DNA from: an uncultured Anaerolineae bacterium
GTDB lineage: Bacteria; Chloroflexota; Anaerolineae; Anaerolineales; Villigracilaceae
Assembly (NCBI GenBank): GCA_903822545.1
Contig: CAIJPN010000069.1
Span: forward strand, 124,001-188,000
Direction: 5' to 3'
Length of the DNA stretch: 64,000 bases
The position numbers and the translations under genes were made by a program. A model generated the notes under the pieces. That model was not told the DNA's origin, searched no databases, and was given only the letters and a program-made list of their open reading frames with translations. Every line of letters starts with the position of its first letter. The stretch's first letter is position 1. Shown in pieces: positions 20,474-33,918 of the stretch.

Positions 20474-23400
20474 ATGCACATCCTCGAAATCACCCTGCAA
20501 CGCAAAGTCGACCAATCGTGGCCGGTGGTGGCACGTCACCAGCCGGGCGAGAACGCCCTGGCCCTGTGGAGCCGCAGCCAGCTGGCGCTCGACCTGGCCG
20601 AATTGGATAACTACCTGCCCACCGACCGCGAATACGGCGAAATGCTTGGCAAAGCCCTCTTCCACGATACCCTGCGCGATGCCTTCACCCGCGCCCTGGC
20701 CGAGGCCAAAACCGCCGGGGAAAGCCTGCGGGTGCTGCTAATCCTCGAAGCCGACGACCTGCGCGGCCTGCGCTGGGAACAAGTCTGCGCCCCCTTTGAC
20801 TTTGGCTGGGACTACTTCAGCCTCAACCAGCAAACATCCTACCAAATCTACCTCCCCAGCCAGATCGAGCGCCGGTTCCCGCCCATCGGCCGTCGCGACC
20901 TGCGCGCCCTGGTGCTGGTTGCCGCGCCCGAAGACCTGGGCAGCGATTACAAGCTCGGCTCTTTTGATGTAGCCGCCACAGTCGAAAGCGTCCGCGCCGC
21001 GCTGGGCGAGATCAAATGCGACGTGCTTTCCAACCTGCCTGGCTCCGCCGCCCGGCCCACGCTCGACGCCCTGTGTGACCAGATCATCGCACAGCCCTAC
21101 ACCCTGCTGCACATCGTCTGTCACGGCGCGTTCAACAAAGCCAACGGCGAAACCATCCTGTACCTGCCCAAAGACGACGCCACCCGCGCACCCGTCAAAG
21201 CCTCCGAGCTGATCACACGCCTCAACCGGCTCAACAGCCCACGCGGGCTGCCGCACTTCACCTTCCTTTCCACCTGCGAATCTGCCAACCCCCAGGCCGA
21301 AAACGGGCTGGGCGGCCTGGGCCAGCGCCTGGTACGCGACCTGGGCATGCCCGCTGTGCTGGCCATGACCGACCGCATCCAGATCAAAACCGCCCAGGCC
21401 CTCGCCAGCGCCTTCTACACCCGCCTGCGCGAACACGGCGAGGTAGATCGCGCCCTATCCGAGTCGCTGGGCAGCCTGCAAGGCAAATTCGATGTCACCG
21501 TTCCGGCCTTGTTCAGCCGCCTGGGCGGGCGACCACTCTTCAGCGATTCGCTCAACCGCCCGCTGACCCTGGCAGAAATCCAATATGGATTGGGGGAACT
21601 ATCGCGGCTGGTAGCAGAACGCGCGCCCGTGCTTTCATCCGAGCTGGCAGGTCACACCGCGCGGATTCAATCCGCCCTGGGGCTGGATTCAGCCACCCTG
21701 GGCGCAGAACTCCGCCAGGAATATGAAACCGCCCTGACCGCCGTCAACCAGATCAGCGGCGAAGTGCTGGATATGTCCTTTGGCGCGCTGGCTCTGGGCA
21801 AAACTGCCCCGGCCTACGATGCGCGCTGCCCCTTCCCCGGCCTGATCGCCTTCCAACCCACCGACAAAGAATTCTTCTTCGGGCGCGAACCGCTGGTCGA
21901 GACTTTGCAACAACGCCTGGCCGAGCACAACTTCCTGGCAGTTCTGGGCGCTTCGGGGTCGGGCAAATCGTCGCTGGTGCTGGCGGGGCTTGTTCCGGCG
22001 CTGGGCGGCGAGATGGCTTACTTCACACCATCCGACAACCCGCTCGAACGCATGAGCGCCGCACTGGAGGCCGCCCCCGCCTCGGCGCTGGTAGTGGCCG
22101 ACCAGTTCGAGGAGCTTTTCACACTCACCACCAGCCACGAAAAACGCCTGGAATTCATCAAAAGCCTGTTGGAACTGGCCCAAAAGCGCCGGGTGGTGGT
22201 GACGATGCGGGCAGATTTCCTCGGCGAGGTGGCTCCTTACGAGTCGATTAAAGCCGAAATCCAGAAACACCAGGAAATCGTGGCCCCCATGAACACCGAT
22301 GAACTGCGCCGGGCAATGGAATTGCAGGCCGCCAAAGTGGGGCTGCGCTTCGAGGCCGACCTGACGCAAGACATCCTGGATAGTGTGCGCGATGAGCCGG
22401 GCGCGATGCCGCTGCTGCAACATGCCATGCTGCTGTTGTGGAATCGCCGTCACGGGCGCTGGCTGCGCACCGAGGAATACCGCGCCATCGGCGGCGTGCA
22501 AAAAGCCATCGCCGGAACCGCCGACGAGTTGTACACCCGCCTTGAAATGGTCGACCGCGAGCGGATGCGCAATATTTTCGTGCGCCTGACGGTGGTGGAC
22601 GATGTTTCGGGCGGCAGCGCGCGCGACACGCGGCGGCGCGTCAATATGCAGGAACTGATCCCGGCGGGCGACGACCCGGCCCCGACGGTAGCGCTGGTGG
22701 CGCGCCTGGCCGATGCGCGCCTGCTGGTGACCGGCGAGAACGCATCCACCGATCAGCAGGATGTGGAAGTGGCGCACGAGGCACTCATCCGGTACTGGCC
22801 CAGGCTGCGGCACTGGCTGGATGAAGACCGCTCCAACCTGCGGCTGCGCGAAACCATCCGCGAGAGCGCGCTGGAATGGGAATCAAACAAAACCGACGAG
22901 AGTTTTATTGAGCATCGCGGCGTGCGCCTCGAAGAAGCTGAAAAACTCAGCCAGCTTCCGCGCTTCCGCCCGAATGCGCTCGAACAGGCCTACCTGGATG
23001 CCTGTGTGAAGTTGCGCGAGGACACCCGCAAGCAGGCCGAGCGCCGCCGCAGGATCACCCTGGGGGTCTCGCTGGTGGCGACCATCATCATGGCAGTGCT
23101 GGGAGCCTATGGCTTCATCCAGGGCCAGGTTGCCACGCAACAGAAAAATGTGGCTGTCACCCAGGAGGCGATGGCCCAGGCCAAAGCCACAGAAGCCTTT
23201 TATGCCCAATCCACCGCCGAGGCGGCCAGCCAGAACGCTGAAACAGCCCGAGTGCTGGCTGAGCAAAAGCAAAAGGAAGCGGAATCCCAAAGCCGCAATG
23301 CCACTGCCGGGCAGCTGGCGCTGCAATCCAAAAGCGTGGCCGAGGATTATCCCATGCGCAGCCTGCTCCTGGCGCTGGAAGCCGTCTACATCAACAAAAA

Positions 23401-26400
23401 CGCCGGGGAGCCGGTTTTGCCCGAAGCCGAAGCCGCCCTGCGCGCCGCCAATGAAACCGTCACCGGGATGGGCCTGCCAGGCTTCCGGCGGCAGGTATCT
23501 GGCATCGCTTTTTCACCAGACAGCCAGTGGATGCTGGCCGCAAGTCATACGGGAGAAGTGAAGATTTGGGATATGAACCAGGTCGCTGGTAGCACATCCA
23601 TCGCCCCCACGTTTGAGAAGGATTTTGGCGATAACGTGACAGATTTCGTTTTTGTGAAAGAAGATGGGCACTGGGTTGGGGTTTCACAGCTGGAAAAAAC
23701 CTACCTGTGGTCTGACAGCAGTTCCAAACGCTATGGCGAGGGCCTGACCCTGGATGGATACTGGTGCGATCTGCCCGGTGAGATTGACCGGCTCATCACC
23801 AGCACGGAAACCCAAACTTTTGTCTGGACGCTCGACCCGGTGAAGCAAAGCATCGTCAGCAGGCAGGTTTTCGACGGGACTATCCTGTTCGTCGGCGCGA
23901 AAAACCGTTTTATCGTGACATATTCGGAGGGGAAAGGCGCGTTATTGTGGGAACTTTCCCCACAGGCCTTGCCGGTTGAACCGAGTCCACTGGACGCTGC
24001 CAAAGTGACTATCGACCGGGAAAGCCCGGATGGCAGCTGGCTGTTGGGCTATTCCGACACCGACACATTTATCTGGAATATCGATCCATCTGGCGCAAAA
24101 GTGACCGGGAAGCAGGCGCTGGCGGGGGCGTTTCGCTTTGTGGATGGGGAAAACCGCTACCTGGTGACCTATTCCCCCGAACAGGGTTCCCTGCTCTGGA
24201 GACTGCCGCTCGGCTCCGGGCAGCCCCAGCCCCAGGTTCTCAGCGCGACGATGGATGTTCTCTCCCTGGAAACCAGCCCGGATAGCCGTTTGGTAATTTT
24301 CAATTCTTACCAATCCGCCAACATGCTAATTTGGCCGCTGGACCAAGACGGCATCCCTGGCAAGGGCATTCTCCTGTCTGATACCAGCGCCTATAGCAAC
24401 TATGCAATATCCAACGATTCGCGCTGGCTGGTCATGAATAACTCTGTCACAGGGAAAACAGAACTTTGGGATCTAGCCGACCTGGAGCAGCCTAAACAGA
24501 TCACTTTGCCGGTTTCGTATCAATTCGTGGCGGGGACTTTTTCAGAAGATGGGAAATGGCTGGTGCTGGTCTCATCGAATGAAATAGGTTTTCTCCCGGT
24601 ATCGGACAACATCCCGACCTATTATCGCTATACCTTCTCATCAGAGCGCGATGAAGGCGTCTACATGGCTGAGTTTGCCAAAAAGCAGCAGATGTTGGGC
24701 GTAGATTTCGCCAGTTCCTATCAATCCGGACACATTTTTTTCAACCTTGCGCTCGAAAACCCGGCGGCCTACACCATAGCAGAAACCCCGGATGTGTTTA
24801 AACCCGCCGCCGCTGTGGAAGAAGCCGGGCAGCCCGCCTCGCGCTGGATCATTCCTGAGCCAGACGGAGATTACCCGACCCTAAGAATCAAGGATAGCCG
24901 CTGCCAGTCTTGCGCAGCCCCGCTTGCGCTGACCGGCCCCGAGGCTTTTGTTGTACTGCACACCATCAGCCCAGACGGGAAATGGCTGGCGGGCGGCACC
25001 GAAGACGGCAACCTGCGCCTGTGGAATATGGAAGAACTGCCCGGACAGCGCCAGTATTCGGGCGACATGCCCGTGACGTATCGTTTTTTTAGCCGCAGCT
25101 ACATGGCCTTCAGCCCGGATAACCAATGGATGGCAACCGGCAATCTCCTGTGGCGGCTGGTCGATGGACACGCGCAAGGTGCGCCCATCCAACTGAGCGA
25201 CAGGGCTGGTATGTTGGCTGTTTTCAGCCAGGATAGCCGCTGGATGGTTTTTGTAAAAGACTCATCGACCGAGGAAGAAGGTTCCGTCACAGTTTACCTG
25301 CTCGATATGCAAAAAATGAACCAGGGCGACCTGCCAACCTTCATCCCGCTCGAAATAGATAAAGCGCAACTCCCCGAAATTATTGCATTCAGCCCAGACA
25401 GCCGCTGGATAGCGATCTCAGGCCAGTCTACGGTTGGGCCCGACGGGCAAAAATCCGTAGAGAGCTACACCTGGAATATTGCTGACCCCGAAAATATCCA
25501 ACGCTATGCCCTGGGGCAAGATGTGTTTGAAATCGCCTTTACAGCAGGTAGCCGCTCCCTGGTTGTCACCGCCGGAGCCGGGGTGCGGGAAACTGCGTAT
25601 TACACCAATATCAGTGTCGCGCAATGGAAACTGCCCGAAGATGGAAGCGCCCCGACCCAGGCTGCAAGTTATGAGATGCGTGGCAGTAATTGGGGCACGC
25701 ACATCAGCACCAATGGCCGCTGGCTGTATTGCGATGATGATGGAATGCTTTGGGACCTGGAAAAAACATTTTCCAGCGGCACACCAAGCAAATTCCAGGT
25801 GGCAGCCCCAGGTTATGTGACAGACAACGATTTCTGGATAAGCTCGACAGGTACTTTTAGCCCGGGCGATCATCAATTGGTGTTAAAGCTGGAAAATGCT
25901 GATTTTACCGGATACACACACACCATTTTTGACCTGAAACCTTATGAAGATGGACAGGCAGCCCAGCCGGTGGAATGGGGAACTTACAAAGCCCCAGACT
26001 ATTATTTACTCTGGGGCAGCCCGGGCGGGAACTGGCTGGTTTACTCTGGTATGTCGCAGGGTATTGGCATAGGCGGCACGGTTTCCTGGGTTGGGGTAAA
26101 TTACGTTACATCCAGCCTGAACGGGCGCGGGTATATTCTCTGGTGGGGCGGTGGCGGTGGTGGGGGCGGCCTTGGCAGTTTCAAAACCGATTTTGCCGCC
26201 ACCCTGATGCAGACCCACGCCAAACCGGCTGGCGACTCGCCCCGTGTGGTTGCCCTGCGCGGGCACGAAACGCAGGTGCAGAGTATGATTTTCAGCCCGG
26301 ACGAAAAATGGGTGGTCACCATCCCCGACCAACAAGAATCCCTGCGGCTGTGGGATACCGCCACCATGTGGGCCAGCCCTGATACGCGTCCCGTGTTGCT

Positions 26401-26650
26401 GCCCTTCCTGGCCGGGAGCTTGAAAAGCATCGGCTTCACCGCCGACAGCCGCTGGCTGGTGCTGGTCACGGATGATAACCTGGTGCACTTCTGGAGCACC
26501 AACATCGATGAGTTGATTTCGCAGGCCTGCCAGGTGGTGGGGCGCAACTTCATCATCAATGAGTGGGAGCGCTACTTCCCCGGACAGGCTTACCGCCAGA
26601 CCTGCCCCAACCTGCCCGCGCACCCATCCACGCTAATGGCCAGCCCATAG
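20474..26650 (+). CDS. CHAT protease - nSTAND NTPase - TM - WD40-like giant protein
   Basis: This is a 2058-residue protein. The N-terminal region is a CHAT (caspase-like) domain with catalytic His217 in IVCHGAF and Cys268 in LSTCESA. Next is an nSTAND1-type NTPase: FFGREPLVETL, P-loop GASGSGKSS at 492-500, Walker B LVVADQFEE at 539-547, and HEALIRYWPRLRHWL. A single membrane helix lies at about 860-881 after RRRR, then an Ala/Gln/Glu-rich coiled-coil to about 950. The remaining 1100 residues form many WD40-like repeats (FSPDSQWMLA, SPDGKWLAGG, DGNLRLWNM), with a run of eight glycines near 1900. CHAT-STAND proteins are often signal-triggered proteases in cell death or defence; here the sensor would lie across a membrane. 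No signal peptide. Stands alone between unrelated operons. Confidence 0.9.
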   Translation: MHILEITLQRKVDQSWPVVARHQPGENALALWSRSQLALDLAELDNYLPTDREYGEMLGKALFHDTLRDAFTRALAEAKTAGESLRVLLILEADDLRGLRWEQVCAPFDFGWDYFSLNQQTSYQIYLPSQIERRFPPIGRRDLRALVLVAAPEDLGSDYKLGSFDVAATVESVRAALGEIKCDVLSNLPGSAARPTLDALCDQIIAQPYTLLHIVCHGAFNKANGETILYLPKDDATRAPVKASELITRLNRLNSPRGLPHFTFLSTCESANPQAENGLGGLGQRLVRDLGMPAVLAMTDRIQIKTAQALASAFYTRLREHGEVDRALSESLGSLQGKFDVTVPALFSRLGGRPLFSDSLNRPLTLAEIQYGLGELSRLVAERAPVLSSELAGHTARIQSALGLDSATLGAELRQEYETALTAVNQISGEVLDMSFGALALGKTAPAYDARCPFPGLIAFQPTDKEFFFGREPLVETLQQRLAEHNFLAVLGASGSGKSSLVLAGLVPALGGEMAYFTPSDNPLERMSAALEAAPASALVVADQFEELFTLTTSHEKRLEFIKSLLELAQKRRVVVTMRADFLGEVAPYESIKAEIQKHQEIVAPMNTDELRRAMELQAAKVGLRFEADLTQDILDSVRDEPGAMPLLQHAMLLLWNRRHGRWLRTEEYRAIGGVQKAIAGTADELYTRLEMVDRERMRNIFVRLTVVDDVSGGSARDTRRRVNMQELIPAGDDPAPTVALVARLADARLLVTGENASTDQQDVEVAHEALIRYWPRLRHWLDEDRSNLRLRETIRESALEWESNKTDESFIEHRGVRLEEAEKLSQLPRFRPNALEQAYLDACVKLREDTRKQAERRRRITLGVSLVATIIMAVLGAYGFIQGQVATQQKNVAVTQEAMAQAKATEAFYAQSTAEAASQNAETARVLAEQKQKEAESQSRNATAGQLALQSKSVAEDYPMRSLLLALEAVYINKNAGEPVLPEAEAALRAANETVTGMGLPGFRRQVSGIAFSPDSQWMLAASHTGEVKIWDMNQVAGSTSIAPTFEKDFGDNVTDFVFVKEDGHWVGVSQLEKTYLWSDSSSKRYGEGLTLDGYWCDLPGEIDRLITSTETQTFVWTLDPVKQSIVSRQVFDGTILFVGAKNRFIVTYSEGKGALLWELSPQALPVEPSPLDAAKVTIDRESPDGSWLLGYSDTDTFIWNIDPSGAKVTGKQALAGAFRFVDGENRYLVTYSPEQGSLLWRLPLGSGQPQPQVLSATMDVLSLETSPDSRLVIFNSYQSANMLIWPLDQDGIPGKGILLSDTSAYSNYAISNDSRWLVMNNSVTGKTELWDLADLEQPKQITLPVSYQFVAGTFSEDGKWLVLVSSNEIGFLPVSDNIPTYYRYTFSSERDEGVYMAEFAKKQQMLGVDFASSYQSGHIFFNLALENPAAYTIAETPDVFKPAAAVEEAGQPASRWIIPEPDGDYPTLRIKDSRCQSCAAPLALTGPEAFVVLHTISPDGKWLAGGTEDGNLRLWNMEELPGQRQYSGDMPVTYRFFSRSYMAFSPDNQWMATGNLLWRLVDGHAQGAPIQLSDRAGMLAVFSQDSRWMVFVKDSSTEEEGSVTVYLLDMQKMNQGDLPTFIPLEIDKAQLPEIIAFSPDSRWIAISGQSTVGPDGQKSVESYTWNIADPENIQRYALGQDVFEIAFTAGSRSLVVTAGAGVRETAYYTNISVAQWKLPEDGSAPTQAASYEMRGSNWGTHISTNGRWLYCDDDGMLWDLEKTFSSGTPSKFQVAAPGYVTDNDFWISSTGTFSPGDHQLVLKLENADFTGYTHTIFDLKPYEDGQAAQPVEWGTYKAPDYYLLWGSPGGNWLVYSGMSQGIGIGGTVSWVGVNYVTSSLNGRGYILWWGGGGGGGGLGSFKTDFAATLMQTHAKPAGDSPRVVALRGHETQVQSMIFSPDEKWVVTIPDQQESLRLWDTATMWASPDTRPVLLPFLAGSLKSIGFTADSRWLVLVTDDNLVHFWSTNIDELISQACQVVGRNFIINEWERYFPGQAYRQTCPNLPAHPSTLMASP

Positions 26651-26671: not shown

Positions 26672-26714
26672 CGCCCCCGCCCAATCACACAAATGAGCGG
26701 GGGCGCTTTTATTT
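26672..26714 (+). terminator. Rho-independent terminator of the CHAT-nSTAND gene
   Basis: CGCCCCCGC (26672-26680) pairs perfectly with GCGGGGGCG (26697-26705) across a 16-base loop and is followed by CTTTTATTTT. It begins 21 bp past the stop. Confidence 0.85.
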
Positions 26715-26846
26715 TGAGCCCCAAAGAATCCCGGAATGTTGGTCAATCGCGAGGGCAAGATCCCTTTACGATTTTTGTCTTGGAGTTGGGAATCCGGATC
26801 TAAAAAGGGGGGTATCGCATCAAAAGGATCTCTTTTCCAGGCAAGA

Positions 26847-27666: not shown

Positions 27667-30216
27667 ATGAAAAACAAAAGCTCGTTTGGCGCCTGGTTAT
27701 ATCGTCAACGCCGCTCACTGGATTTGACGCGTAAGGCTCTTGCAAATCAGGTGGGTTGCGCTGAAATCACCTTGCGCCGGATTGAAGACGACTCGCTTAA
27801 ACCTTCCCAAGAACTGGCCAACATCCTGCTGGAAAAGCTCGGCATTTGCGAGAATGAACGCCCGCAATGGGTTCAATTTGCGCGCGGCCTGACAGCGCAT
27901 CCAGAACCACCCGTTGGATATCTCTCTGCCAAACCGCTGAGTAACCTGCCAGCCTTGCTGACCACCTTTATCGGCCGCGACAAAGATCAAGTCGAAATTA
28001 TCCAGCATCTCAAGAAATATCGCCTGGTTACGCTGACGGGTTCTGGCGGGGTTGGAAAAACACGTTTGTCCATAAAAATTGGAGAACAGGTGTTGGCAGA
28101 TTACACCCATGGGGTCTGGTTGCTGGAACTGGCCCCGCTGAATGATCCAGCCCTATTGCCACAATTCATCGCATCAATATTTGGCCTGGTGACATCACCC
28201 AATATTCCTCTCGTCGAAGCACTGGCCAATTTCCTCCGCACAAAAACGATCTTGCTCATTCTTGATAATTGTGAACATTTATTGGAAACCTGTGCCCAAG
28301 TGGCGAATGTTTTGTTGAAGAAATGCCCCAACCTGAAAATCCTTGCCACCAGTCGCGAAGCCCTGGGAATTCTGGGAGAACTCTCCTATCGTGTTCCTTC
28401 GCTTGGGTTGCCAGATACCCAGGGATCACTTGAAGATGGCAGGGCCAGCGAATCGATGCGCCTGTTTGAAGAACGCGCCCAGCTTGCGCGAACAGATTTT
28501 TCACTGAGCCAGGAAAATGTAAAGTCTGTTGCCCAAATTTGCTCACGCCTCGATGGTATTCCACTGGCAATCGAACTTGCCGCTGCGCAAACTGTATTTT
28601 TTTCAACCAGCCAGATAGCGGCACGCTTGAATGAGAGTTTTAATCTAATCACAGGCGGGAATCGCACAGCGCTGCCCCGACACCAGACGATACGCGCTTC
28701 AATCGAATGGAGTTGGAACCTGATTTCCAATGTAGAGCACACCCTTCTGCGCCGCCTGGCTGTTTTTTCGGGCGGATGGACGCTCGAATCGGCCGAGGCA
28801 ATTTGCAGCAGCCATGGCATGAAGGCCCACCAAATCCTGGGGCTGCTGGCCCAACTGATGGCCAAGTCACTGGTGAACGCGCACCAGGAGACAGGACGCT
28901 TCCGCCTTCATGAAGCAATCCGTCAATTCGCGCATGAAAAGCTGGTTGAGGCCAACGAAGTTGAGAACGTTCGCGGCTTGCACCTGCAATACTTTCTTGC
29001 ACTTTCGGCGCAAGATGAGCCTGCTTTGCATGGCGTCCAGCAAGAAGAATGGTTTCGCTGCATCAACGAAGAACGTGGCAATATCCATACTGCTATGGAA
29101 CATGCTTCAAAAACGGATGTAGAAGCGGGGTTGTTGCTCACTGGCAGGTTGCTCCGTTATTGGACTAATTTCGATTTACGCGAAGGCTTACGCTGGACGA
29201 CAGAGTTTGTTCAAAAACCCGAGTCAACACAATACCCACGCAGACGCGCCAAAGCCCTGCTGGCACAGGGGAATATTCTCTGGTATTTACAGCAGTTCGA
29301 GTCCGCGCATTCCATCGCAGATGAGTGCCTGGCGTTATTTCGCGCTTGCGGCGACTATCAGGGCGAGTTCGAAAGCCTGCTGCTGATGGGTTCTGTAATG
29401 CAGTTCCTGGAAGGGATGGAGAAAAAAATCGAATTCCAGCGACAAGCCTTGGTTCTGGCCCAATCGACTGGGGGCTTATGGGAACAGGCACTGGCACTAT
29501 CCGCCCTGGGATGGGATCAGCGTGATGTCGCACAAGCCCGCGCCTGCCGGGAAAAAGCAATTGGCCTTTTTCGCCAGATAGATGATTGGCGCAACCTGGT
29601 GGACACCCTTGGCATTTTAGGCTACACAGTCTTGCTGAATGGTGATGTAGAAGCTGCCCAGGCTTATCTAGATGAAGCGTATGAGATAAATGGGCAGATG
29701 AATGGCAAACGAGGCATGGAATTTATTTTAACTGGCAAGAGCTACATAGCCTTGATGCGCGGTGAATATGACCAGGCATTTGCCTATCTGGAAGAAAACG
29801 CAATTGCCCTCGAAGAAATGGGAAATCGAATGGGATATCTCTGGGCGCGCGCCCGCCTGGGATACGTTGCTTTGTGCGCTGGGAATGTGGCAGAAGCGCG
29901 TCACATCCTTATCGAAACTGTCGAGAGCTTTCATCAGGATCAAAACAAAAGTGGACTTGCCTTTGCTTTGGATAAAATCGCCAGTTTATATGTTGTCACT
30001 GCCAAGCTCGAACCTGCGGCCCGTCTCCTCGGATGGTCAGACAAGGTTCGCCAGGAAATTGGCGATCCACGCGCACTCCTTGAACAGGTGAGCGTGGATC
30101 GCGATGCGGCCACTATTATTGAGAGAATTGGTTCCGGTGGATTTGAATTAGCTTATGATTCCGGGCAGGGAATGACGCTTGATGAAGCCCTCGCGTTGAG
30201 TTTGAGCGAAAAATAA
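27667..30216 (+). CDS. XRE/NB-ARC/TPR transcriptional regulator
   Basis: This is an 849-residue paralogue of the regulator at 2349-4901. An XRE domain lies at about 5-60 (FGAWLYRQRRSLDLTRKAL, LRRIEDDSLKPS). The NB-ARC ATPase has P-loop GSGGVGKT at 125-132, Walker B LLILDN followed by CEH, the TSREALGILGE motif and GIPLAIELAAAQ. The C-terminal 350 residues are TPR-like repeats (ALLAQGNILWYLQQFESAHS, YLDEAYEINGQM). Walker and sensor motifs look intact. It diverges from the duplicated lipoprotein, its most likely target. The ribosome site before the ATG is weak (AGG five bases away). Confidence 0.88.
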   Translation: MKNKSSFGAWLYRQRRSLDLTRKALANQVGCAEITLRRIEDDSLKPSQELANILLEKLGICENERPQWVQFARGLTAHPEPPVGYLSAKPLSNLPALLTTFIGRDKDQVEIIQHLKKYRLVTLTGSGGVGKTRLSIKIGEQVLADYTHGVWLLELAPLNDPALLPQFIASIFGLVTSPNIPLVEALANFLRTKTILLILDNCEHLLETCAQVANVLLKKCPNLKILATSREALGILGELSYRVPSLGLPDTQGSLEDGRASESMRLFEERAQLARTDFSLSQENVKSVAQICSRLDGIPLAIELAAAQTVFFSTSQIAARLNESFNLITGGNRTALPRHQTIRASIEWSWNLISNVEHTLLRRLAVFSGGWTLESAEAICSSHGMKAHQILGLLAQLMAKSLVNAHQETGRFRLHEAIRQFAHEKLVEANEVENVRGLHLQYFLALSAQDEPALHGVQQEEWFRCINEERGNIHTAMEHASKTDVEAGLLLTGRLLRYWTNFDLREGLRWTTEFVQKPESTQYPRRRAKALLAQGNILWYLQQFESAHSIADECLALFRACGDYQGEFESLLLMGSVMQFLEGMEKKIEFQRQALVLAQSTGGLWEQALALSALGWDQRDVAQARACREKAIGLFRQIDDWRNLVDTLGILGYTVLLNGDVEAAQAYLDEAYEINGQMNGKRGMEFILTGKSYIALMRGEYDQAFAYLEENAIALEEMGNRMGYLWARARLGYVALCAGNVAEARHILIETVESFHQDQNKSGLAFALDKIASLYVVTAKLEPAARLLGWSDKVRQEIGDPRALLEQVSVDRDAATIIERIGSGGFELAYDSGQGMTLDEALALSLSEK

Positions 30217-32817: not shown

Positions 32818-33918
32818 TCAATCTGTCAACAGGTGGGCATCTTCCGGCGACCAGATTACTCTGACTTGATCGCCTTTTTCGAATCCGACCACTTCGCTGC
32901 CGTAACCGTTCTGGACGCGCACGATGACGGTCTCGCCGGAAGGCAGCGCCACCAGGTAGCGCGTGTCAGTGCCGATGTAAACCTTATCTTGCACAATGCC
33001 AGTTAAACCCTCGCCATCGGGTTTGCCGAGCGCGATCTTTTCGGGGCGGATGGTAAATGTCACGGGTTGGTCAATCTTCGGGTGGATGGATTCAGCCTGG
33101 AGGGCGACCGTTTCCGGGCCGATTCTCAGGGTGAGCTTGCCACCGTTATCCGAATCCACCACCCCGCTGATGAAGTTGCTCTCCCCGATGAAATCTGCCA
33201 CAAACTTGTTGGCTGGTTTTTTATACAGGGTCAGTGGGTCGCCCAACTGCTGGATGACGCCATCTTTCATCACGGCAATCGTGTCGGACATGGTGAGCGC
33301 TTCTTCCTGGTCGTGGGTAACGTAAACGAACGTGATGCCGACCTGCTCCTGGATGTGCTTCAACTCGAACTGCATGGCTTTGCGCAGTTTCAAATCCAGC
33401 GCGCCGAGCGGCTCGTCGAGCAGGAGCACTTCGGGGCGGTTGACCAGGGCGCGGGCCAGTGCCACGCGCTGCTGCTGCCCGCCGGAAAGCTGCGAAGGCT
33501 TGCGGTCGCCCATATCCGCCAGTTTGACCATCGCTAAGGCTTCACGCACCAATTGCTCCCGTTCGGCGGCTGGCGTGTGCTTGATTGCCAACCCAAAGCC
33601 GACATTTTTGGCAACGGTCATGTGCGGGAAGAGCGCATAATTCTGGAAGACGGTGTTGACCGGGCGCATGTTGGGCGGAACTTTGCTCATCGGCTTGCCC
33701 TGGATGAACACCTCGCCAGAACTGGGCGACTCGAAACCGGCAATCAGCCGCAGGGTGGTGGTTTTCCCGCAGCCGCTGGGGCCTAACAGCGTAAAAAACT
33801 TCCCGCGCGGAATCGTCAAATTGGTTTCTTTCAACGCGTAGACCGTCTCGACCTTTTTTATCCCGCGCGAAGAAAATACCTTGCTAACGTTTTGGAATTC
33901 GACAGCGAAATTCGTCAT
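32818..33918 (-). CDS. potA: Spermidine/putrescine-type ABC importer ATPase
   Basis: This is a 366-residue ATPase: Walker A GPSGCGKT at 46-53, Q-loop Gln92 (VFQNYALFPHMTV), signature LSGGQ at 144-148, Walker B LLLDEP at 165-170, His202 in VTHDQEEA, and a C-terminal TOBE region from about 240. The PotA-like ATP-binding subunit energises uptake through PotB/PotC. The ATG is four bases past the potC stop with AAAGG upstream, so expression is coupled. It is the fourth gene of the D-B-C-A operon. PotA-type ATPases serve polyamines, betaines and other cationic solutes, so the substrate is open. Confidence 0.93.
   Translation of the reverse strand: MTNFAVEFQNVSKVFSSRGIKKVETVYALKETNLTIPRGKFFTLLGPSGCGKTTTLRLIAGFESPSSGEVFIQGKPMSKVPPNMRPVNTVFQNYALFPHMTVAKNVGFGLAIKHTPAAEREQLVREALAMVKLADMGDRKPSQLSGGQQQRVALARALVNRPEVLLLDEPLGALDLKLRKAMQFELKHIQEQVGITFVYVTHDQEEALTMSDTIAVMKDGVIQQLGDPLTLYKKPANKFVADFIGESNFISGVVDSDNGGKLTLRIGPETVALQAESIHPKIDQPVTFTIRPEKIALGKPDGEGLTGIVQDKVYIGTDTRYLVALPSGETVIVRVQNGYGSEVVGFEKGDQVRVIWSPEDAHLLTD

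Follow-up and report, generated by a model that had tools for sequence, protein, structure and literature searches.

A probable outside-in receptor combining a CHAT protease, an nSTAND1 switch and a WD40-like ectodomain in an uncultured Anaerolineae bacterium

The stretch of DNA considered here (the window, 64,000 nucleotides) comes from the 5.5 Mb genome of an uncultured Anaerolineae bacterium, in which it carries, on contig C69, a gene for a protein of 2058 amino acids. The product is probably a single-pass receptor with its N-terminus in the cytoplasm, in which a WD40 sensor gates a CHAT protease by way of an nSTAND1 NTPase, and which would have been built by half-replacement. The gene is a single intact open reading frame, free of internal stop codons; its coordinates are exact and its domain matches lie far above chance. 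Its features are as follows.

20474..26650, + strand: whole gene, CHAT-nSTAND1-transmembrane helix-stalk-WD40, 2058 amino acids (translation of the open reading frame, Pfam)
20633..21472, + strand: CHAT protease domain, residues 54-333 (Pfam PF12770, E 5e-19)
21122..21124, + strand: catalytic His217 codon (motif HIVCHG; conserved in homologues)
21275..21277, + strand: catalytic Cys268 codon (motif STCES; conserved in homologues)
21830..22900, + strand: nSTAND1 NTPase, residues 453-809 (Pfam PF20703, E 1e-104)
21947..21973, + strand: Walker A, GASGSGKSS, residues 492-500 (sequence, homologue alignment)
22088..22114, + strand: Walker B-like motif, LVVADQFEE, residues 539-547 (sequence, homologue alignment)
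22856..23038, + strand: juxtamembrane helical module, residues 795-855 (can be aligned to nSTAND1 proteins as well as TIR receptors)
23054..23119, + strand: predicted transmembrane helix, residues 861-882, with a run of Arg ahead of it and the mosaic junction at about 850-862 (hydropathy, charge, alignments)
23120..23353, + strand: helical stalk or coiled coil, residues 883-960 (model secondary structure, sequence)
23354..26518, + strand: WD40-like ectodomain, residues 961-2015 (full-length homology to TIR-transmembrane-WD40 receptors)
26147..26170, + strand: Gly-rich loop, with a glycine run at the same place in the TIR receptors (sequence, alignment)
26528..26605, + strand: C-terminal module with Cys2019 and Cys2044, a predicted disulphide (comparison of C-terminal tails)
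about 26672..26715, + strand: hairpin and T run, a probable terminator (sequence; partial match in a search)

The CHAT domain scores 69 bits against a curated cut-off of 24 and contains the catalytic His-Cys dyad in its sequence motifs, whilst the nSTAND1 domain scores 352 bits, covers positions 1-378 of the 379 in the profile and keeps both its Walker A and its Walker B-like motifs intact. A preliminary description, made from the letters of the DNA, had proposed this very combination of His217, Cys268, P-loop and Walker B, and Pfam and the motifs bear it out. The active site is also intact in relatives, with His217 present in 8/8 and Cys268 in 9/9 of the fused homologues that cover it, and the dyad retained in 13/13 aligned CHAT proteins encoded by a separate gene. 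It is thus very improbable that the CHAT domain is a dead protease serving only as a scaffold, and the inactive site in close homologues that the preliminary description had named as a possible refutation was not encountered.

The separate-gene form consists of a gene for a CHAT protein of about 685 amino acids located directly 5' of a STAND-transmembrane-WD40 gene, with a gap of -22 to +17 nucleotides. Such adjacent pairs occur at five loci of the source genome and at eight loci in six related genomes, and a sixth pair in the source genome stands 1.4 kb apart. Since the same pair is found both split and fused, there is good evidence, from gene arrangement and sequence, that the STAND-transmembrane-WD40 protein controls the CHAT protease. 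One of the two-gene CHAT proteins (L053 2966-5020, contig C22) additionally has a SIR2-like domain with weak ThsA/STALD matches, and could possibly combine protease and NAD-related activity in one chain.

The two halves of the window protein have different nearest relatives. For the CHAT-nSTAND1 half this is a paralogue from the source genome, on contig C144, which is 57% identical over residues 3-947; by BLAST, identity to this paralogue is 55% in CHAT, 65% in nSTAND1 and 54% over residues 795-850. The helix and ectodomain, by the same method, score 366 bits to a TIR receptor versus 58 bits to the paralogue, and the nearest relative switches from the paralogue to the TIR receptors at about residues 850-862. 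When genome contigs were scanned with the full protein, three of them matched it over residues 795-2058, and one further match was an nSTAND1 relative. The three contigs, from related Anaerolineae, encode TIR_2-transmembrane-WD40 proteins of 1318-1371 amino acids without any STAND domain, and scans of the phylum added two further TIR receptors (G019 is seemingly the same record as L043). The TIR receptor ectodomains align with that of the window protein from end to end (27-32% identity), and both the glycine run and a GRNFIINEWERxFP...YR.TC tail are shared. Juxtamembrane residues 795-849 can be aligned in both the CHAT-nSTAND1 and the TIR groups, and this module is therefore a possible place of recombination. 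Because of the identity switch, the window gene is, on sequence comparison, a mosaic that records a natural exchange of effectors at the membrane, with its junction at the start of the helix.

The same arrangement of switch and helix serves as a chassis for other proteins. The source genome encodes eight strong nSTAND1 proteins, and wherever the open reading frame continues beyond the switch, a hydrophobic helix follows closely. At the N-terminus these proteins carry CHAT, trypsin or a Ser/Thr kinase, the last either alone or with HTH, and at the C-terminus WD40, FGE-sulfatase, or WD40 together with a PnrA/Bmp-type solute-binding protein. In relatives the N-terminal repertoire extends to TIR, HTH and BTAD transcription activators, and the C-terminal one to two further Bmp domains and a right-handed beta-helix, such that three chassis-mates overall have an extracytoplasmic PnrA-type C-terminus. 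The 1921-amino-acid protein encoded at L046 2299-8064 (contig C199) runs from an HTH-like start through kinase, nSTAND1, transmembrane helix and WD40 to a PnrA/Bmp domain, and appears to be a receptor whose extracytoplasmic ligand-binding domain can be recognised. The N-terminal regions of L090 and L096 are BTAD/SARP activators fused to nSTAND1-transmembrane-WD40, and are predicted to be membrane-tethered transcription factors.

The topology of the window protein was assessed from Kyte-Doolittle hydropathy and from the Arg/Lys charge bias over 15 residues on either side of the helix. The only 19-residue stretch to reach transmembrane hydropathy is 861-879 (mean 2.13; the runner-up has 1.32), in agreement with the single membrane helix earlier placed near 860-881. 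In 35 nSTAND1 proteins the mean number of Arg and Lys residues is 4.9 before the helix and 1.6 after it, with the N-side in excess in 34/35; the same excess is found in 9/10 two-gene STAND proteins and in 5/5 TIR receptors, so that the bias holds in 48/50 proteins overall, all related to one another. In the C-terminal module two cysteines are present in 32 tails, none in 2 (of one genus) and one alone in 0, as tallied by eye; the first of the pair occupies one of two alternative positions, ahead of or just behind a conserved (N)LTxxE segment. As the two cysteines are retained or lost together, they are predicted to form a disulphide, and disulphides form outside the cytoplasm. DNA-binding and kinase domains are cytoplasmic and PnrA/Bmp proteins extracytoplasmic; chassis-mates that begin with the former and end with the latter would therefore have their two ends on opposite sides of the membrane. 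Charge bias, paired cysteines and the end domains of the chassis-mates together strongly argue for an N-in/C-out topology, with protease and NTPase inside and the WD40 sensor outside, as the preliminary description had supposed. By prediction, the protein thus falls in the class of single-pass receptors with an extracytoplasmic WD40 domain. The STAND and WD40 proteins studied so far are mostly cytosolic, and the window protein might likewise be wholly so, with the hydrophobic segment buried or inserting into the membrane only after activation; this is highly unlikely in view of the hydrophobic segment and basic N-terminal flank that virtually all relatives possess, the solute-binding-protein C-termini and the concerted loss or retention of the cysteines.

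Pfam detects WD40-type repeats at residues 1001-2010, within an ectodomain of about 1050 amino acids, close to the 1100 residues first estimated. A low-confidence AlphaFold2 model has an unbroken helix across the transmembrane segment and stalk, followed by beta strands, which is consistent with the coiled coil proposed at this place. The gene also seems to be an independent unit with its own terminator, as had been suggested: the upstream neighbour stops 395 bp 5' of the start codon, an AGGAG ribosome-binding site precedes that codon, and 3' of the stop codon there is a GC-rich hairpin with a T-rich run behind it. Other parts of the genome match the 395 bp upstream region only partially, over 57 bases.

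On sequence comparison the CHAT-nSTAND1 proteins are a small family of Chloroflexota and of cyanobacterial plasmids. At E ≤ 1e-100 the half is found in 5/400 genomes of the phylum, the source genome included, and plasmid copies number two on a Nostoc plasmid and one on a Planktothrix plasmid. All homologues are 47-58% identical to the window protein across the aligned part. The G295 copy is split by a frame break, the Planktothrix copy is interrupted by an IS1634 element, and the G267 copy (L057 1-2937) has five predicted transmembrane helices after CHAT-nSTAND1 in place of the WD40 repeats. A protein of 438 or 440 amino acids without a Pfam match, 58% identical between copies, adjoins the plasmid CHAT-nSTAND1 genes (L064 1235-2551, L065 7581-8903). 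A family of C25-like peptidases, 49-57% identical, is found on the cyanobacterial plasmids and on contig C190 of the source genome; each time its genes adjoin STAND-transmembrane-WD40 genes (L064 2582-4231, L065 16655-18331, L085 3599-5323), and it is possible that these peptidases are a downstream protease or substrate. A pattern-limited scan found no relatives in viral contigs. Four unannotated gut phage records have weak nSTAND1 matches.

In the mechanism that we propose, the WD40-like ectodomain would bind a ligand or a cell-surface partner outside the cytoplasmic membrane, and the resulting change would be relayed through the stalk, the helix and the juxtamembrane module to nSTAND1. The switch would then exchange nucleotide and oligomerise, bringing CHAT domains together, after which the His217/Cys268 protease may cleave cytosolic targets, possibly including itself or another protein. 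Oligomerisation and protease activation are here suggested by analogy with known STAND and CHAT proteins. The gene itself would have arisen when a cytosolic CHAT-nSTAND1 half was joined, at the start of the helix, to a TIR-type receptor's helix and ectodomain. Several observations weigh against this scheme or its lethal form. Hydropathy and charge make a simple topology test, and the counts, from related sequences, are not independent. The model of the ectodomain, made with four sequences, has a mean predicted local distance difference test score (pLDDT) of 50, and neither the propellers nor the disulphide are confirmed by it. Versions of the chassis with kinases and transcription-factor domains mean that it is not restricted to cell death, and beside the window gene there is neither a defence gene nor a gasdermin nor an obvious substrate for the protease.

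Because of these other outputs the outcome need not be death, and there is a little less than an even chance that the same outside-in receptor uses CHAT for regulated, non-lethal cleavage, such as release of a regulator or surface and stress signalling. Ser/Thr kinase, HTH and BTAD domains on the chassis are in keeping with this, as are the number of strong nSTAND1 proteins in the genome, which suggests a signalling repertoire, and the metabolic character of the window neighbours. The latter comprise a glycosidase, an AMP-ligase, an ATP-binding cassette (ABC) exporter pair, a small predicted lipoprotein, an HTH/NB-ARC/TPR regulator, MTTB, an ABC importer and NAD synthase; the immediate flanks are one half of the exporter and the lipoprotein, which has no Pfam match. 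Set against non-lethal signalling are the TIR domains on the same ectodomain, which are typical NADase or defence effectors, the sporadic and plasmid-borne distribution, which resembles that of conflict genes, and the closest paralogue, which adjoins DISARM: a complete, divergent WYL-DrmA-DrmB-DrmC core lies 0.6 kb from the C144 copy (L044 17799 to L045 6205).

That core, domain kinship with STAND defence proteins, the rarity among the genomes of the phylum and carriage on cyanobacterial plasmids with a conserved C25-like peptidase partner would all suit an anti-phage or anti-predator abortive-infection receptor with a cell-surface trigger. This possibility is nevertheless doubtful. The window copy lies outside any defence island, PADLOC returns for the protein only mad8/mad3 matches (E about 0.002) in the P-loop region, short of a curated-model assignment, and the viral-contig scan, within its pattern limit, gave no relative. 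To our knowledge, the experimentally studied bacterial STAND defence proteins, including the antiviral ones, sense inside the cell. The link to defence is thus indirect, suggested by DISARM beside the paralogue and by the same ectodomain on TIR domains. Of the outside-in suicide protease first envisaged, the outside-in part gains from the topology evidence, whereas the suicide part stays conjectural, given the metabolic neighbours and the kinase and transcription-factor outputs.

The regulator just 3' of the gene (window 27667-30216, +) has HTH, an NB-ARC-like NTPase and a TPR region and is AfsR/HaaT-like. A mad3 match at window 32818-33918 was rejected as a defence gene, being an ordinary ABC ATPase. 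The ABC exporter pairs beside the gene and its paralogue are only 24-28% identical and differently oriented, and their shared position is therefore regarded as coincidence.

The architecture is a variant of published protease-STAND-WD40, nSTAND1 and periplasmic-WD40 kinase proteins. Prokaryotic metacaspase-NACHT-WD40 proteins, for some of which an intracellular protease and an extracellular sensor were proposed (PMC2853523, PMC3501461), likewise unite in one polypeptide a caspase-fold protease, WD40 repeats and a STAND-type NTPase. The window protein differs in having CHAT and nSTAND1, a single helix that links the switch to the sensor, and a TIR-receptor ectodomain; neither peptidase C14 nor NACHT is among the Pfam families reported for it. 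Conflict systems with nSTAND1 and EACC1 occasionally possess an extracellular periplasmic-binding-protein domain (PMC8195603, PMC7159879) and share the nSTAND1 NTPase, caspase-superfamily peptidases and a membrane link, but in the window protein protease, switch and sensor are one polypeptide and neither flanking gene is EACC1; a genome-wide search with PF19953 gave no match, although its control was also silent. The membrane Ser/Thr kinases of Planctomycetota with periplasmic WD40 arrays (PMC11032199) are also single-pass, with a cytosolic effector and WD40 predicted outside, whereas in the window protein the effector is a protease and is joined to a STAND switch. Craspase, in which TPR-CHAT associates with type III-E gRAMP (PMC9729208, PMC10028731), also restrains a CHAT protease until a sensor is triggered; the window protein, by contrast, has no TPR by Pfam, shows no CRISPR gene in a scan of ten flanking genes, and is predicted to have a membrane anchor and an extracytoplasmic sensor. 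STAND NTPases with diversified lectin sensors, some predicted to be periplasmic (PMC10907252), share nSTAND1 or NACHT with a C-terminal sensor, which in the window protein is WD40; no diversity-generating retroelement turned up, without a dedicated search. WP_224095578.1 and WP_224095579.1, RefSeq 'CHAT domain-containing proteins' of the Nostoc plasmid, have the same domain order and a CHAT-nSTAND1 part about 50% identical, but another ectodomain and an operon with a C25-like peptidase. No description of the CHAT-nSTAND1-transmembrane-WD40 family, its split form or the TIR swap was found in the open-licence literature searched, which is weak evidence of novelty.

In the window protein and its relatives, the wiring of a STAND switch and a caspase-like protease to an extracytoplasmic sensor is well supported. 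These proteins also provide a natural experiment, in which sister lineages carry this sensor on a TIR domain and the CHAT-STAND pair also occurs as two adjacent genes, and transmembrane control of a bacterial death-type protease thereby becomes directly testable. The outer half held in common with TIR receptors indicates that bacterial alarm receptors are assembled by the mixing of parts. A broader idea, speculative and on balance unlikely, is that Anaerolineae have a modular surface system resembling Toll or death receptors, in which a single family of very large WD40 ectodomains senses attack outside the membrane and natural recombination at the helix start plugs in a TIR enzyme in some cases and a STAND-gated CHAT protease in others. 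If that were true, one outside signal could trigger different suicide chemistries.

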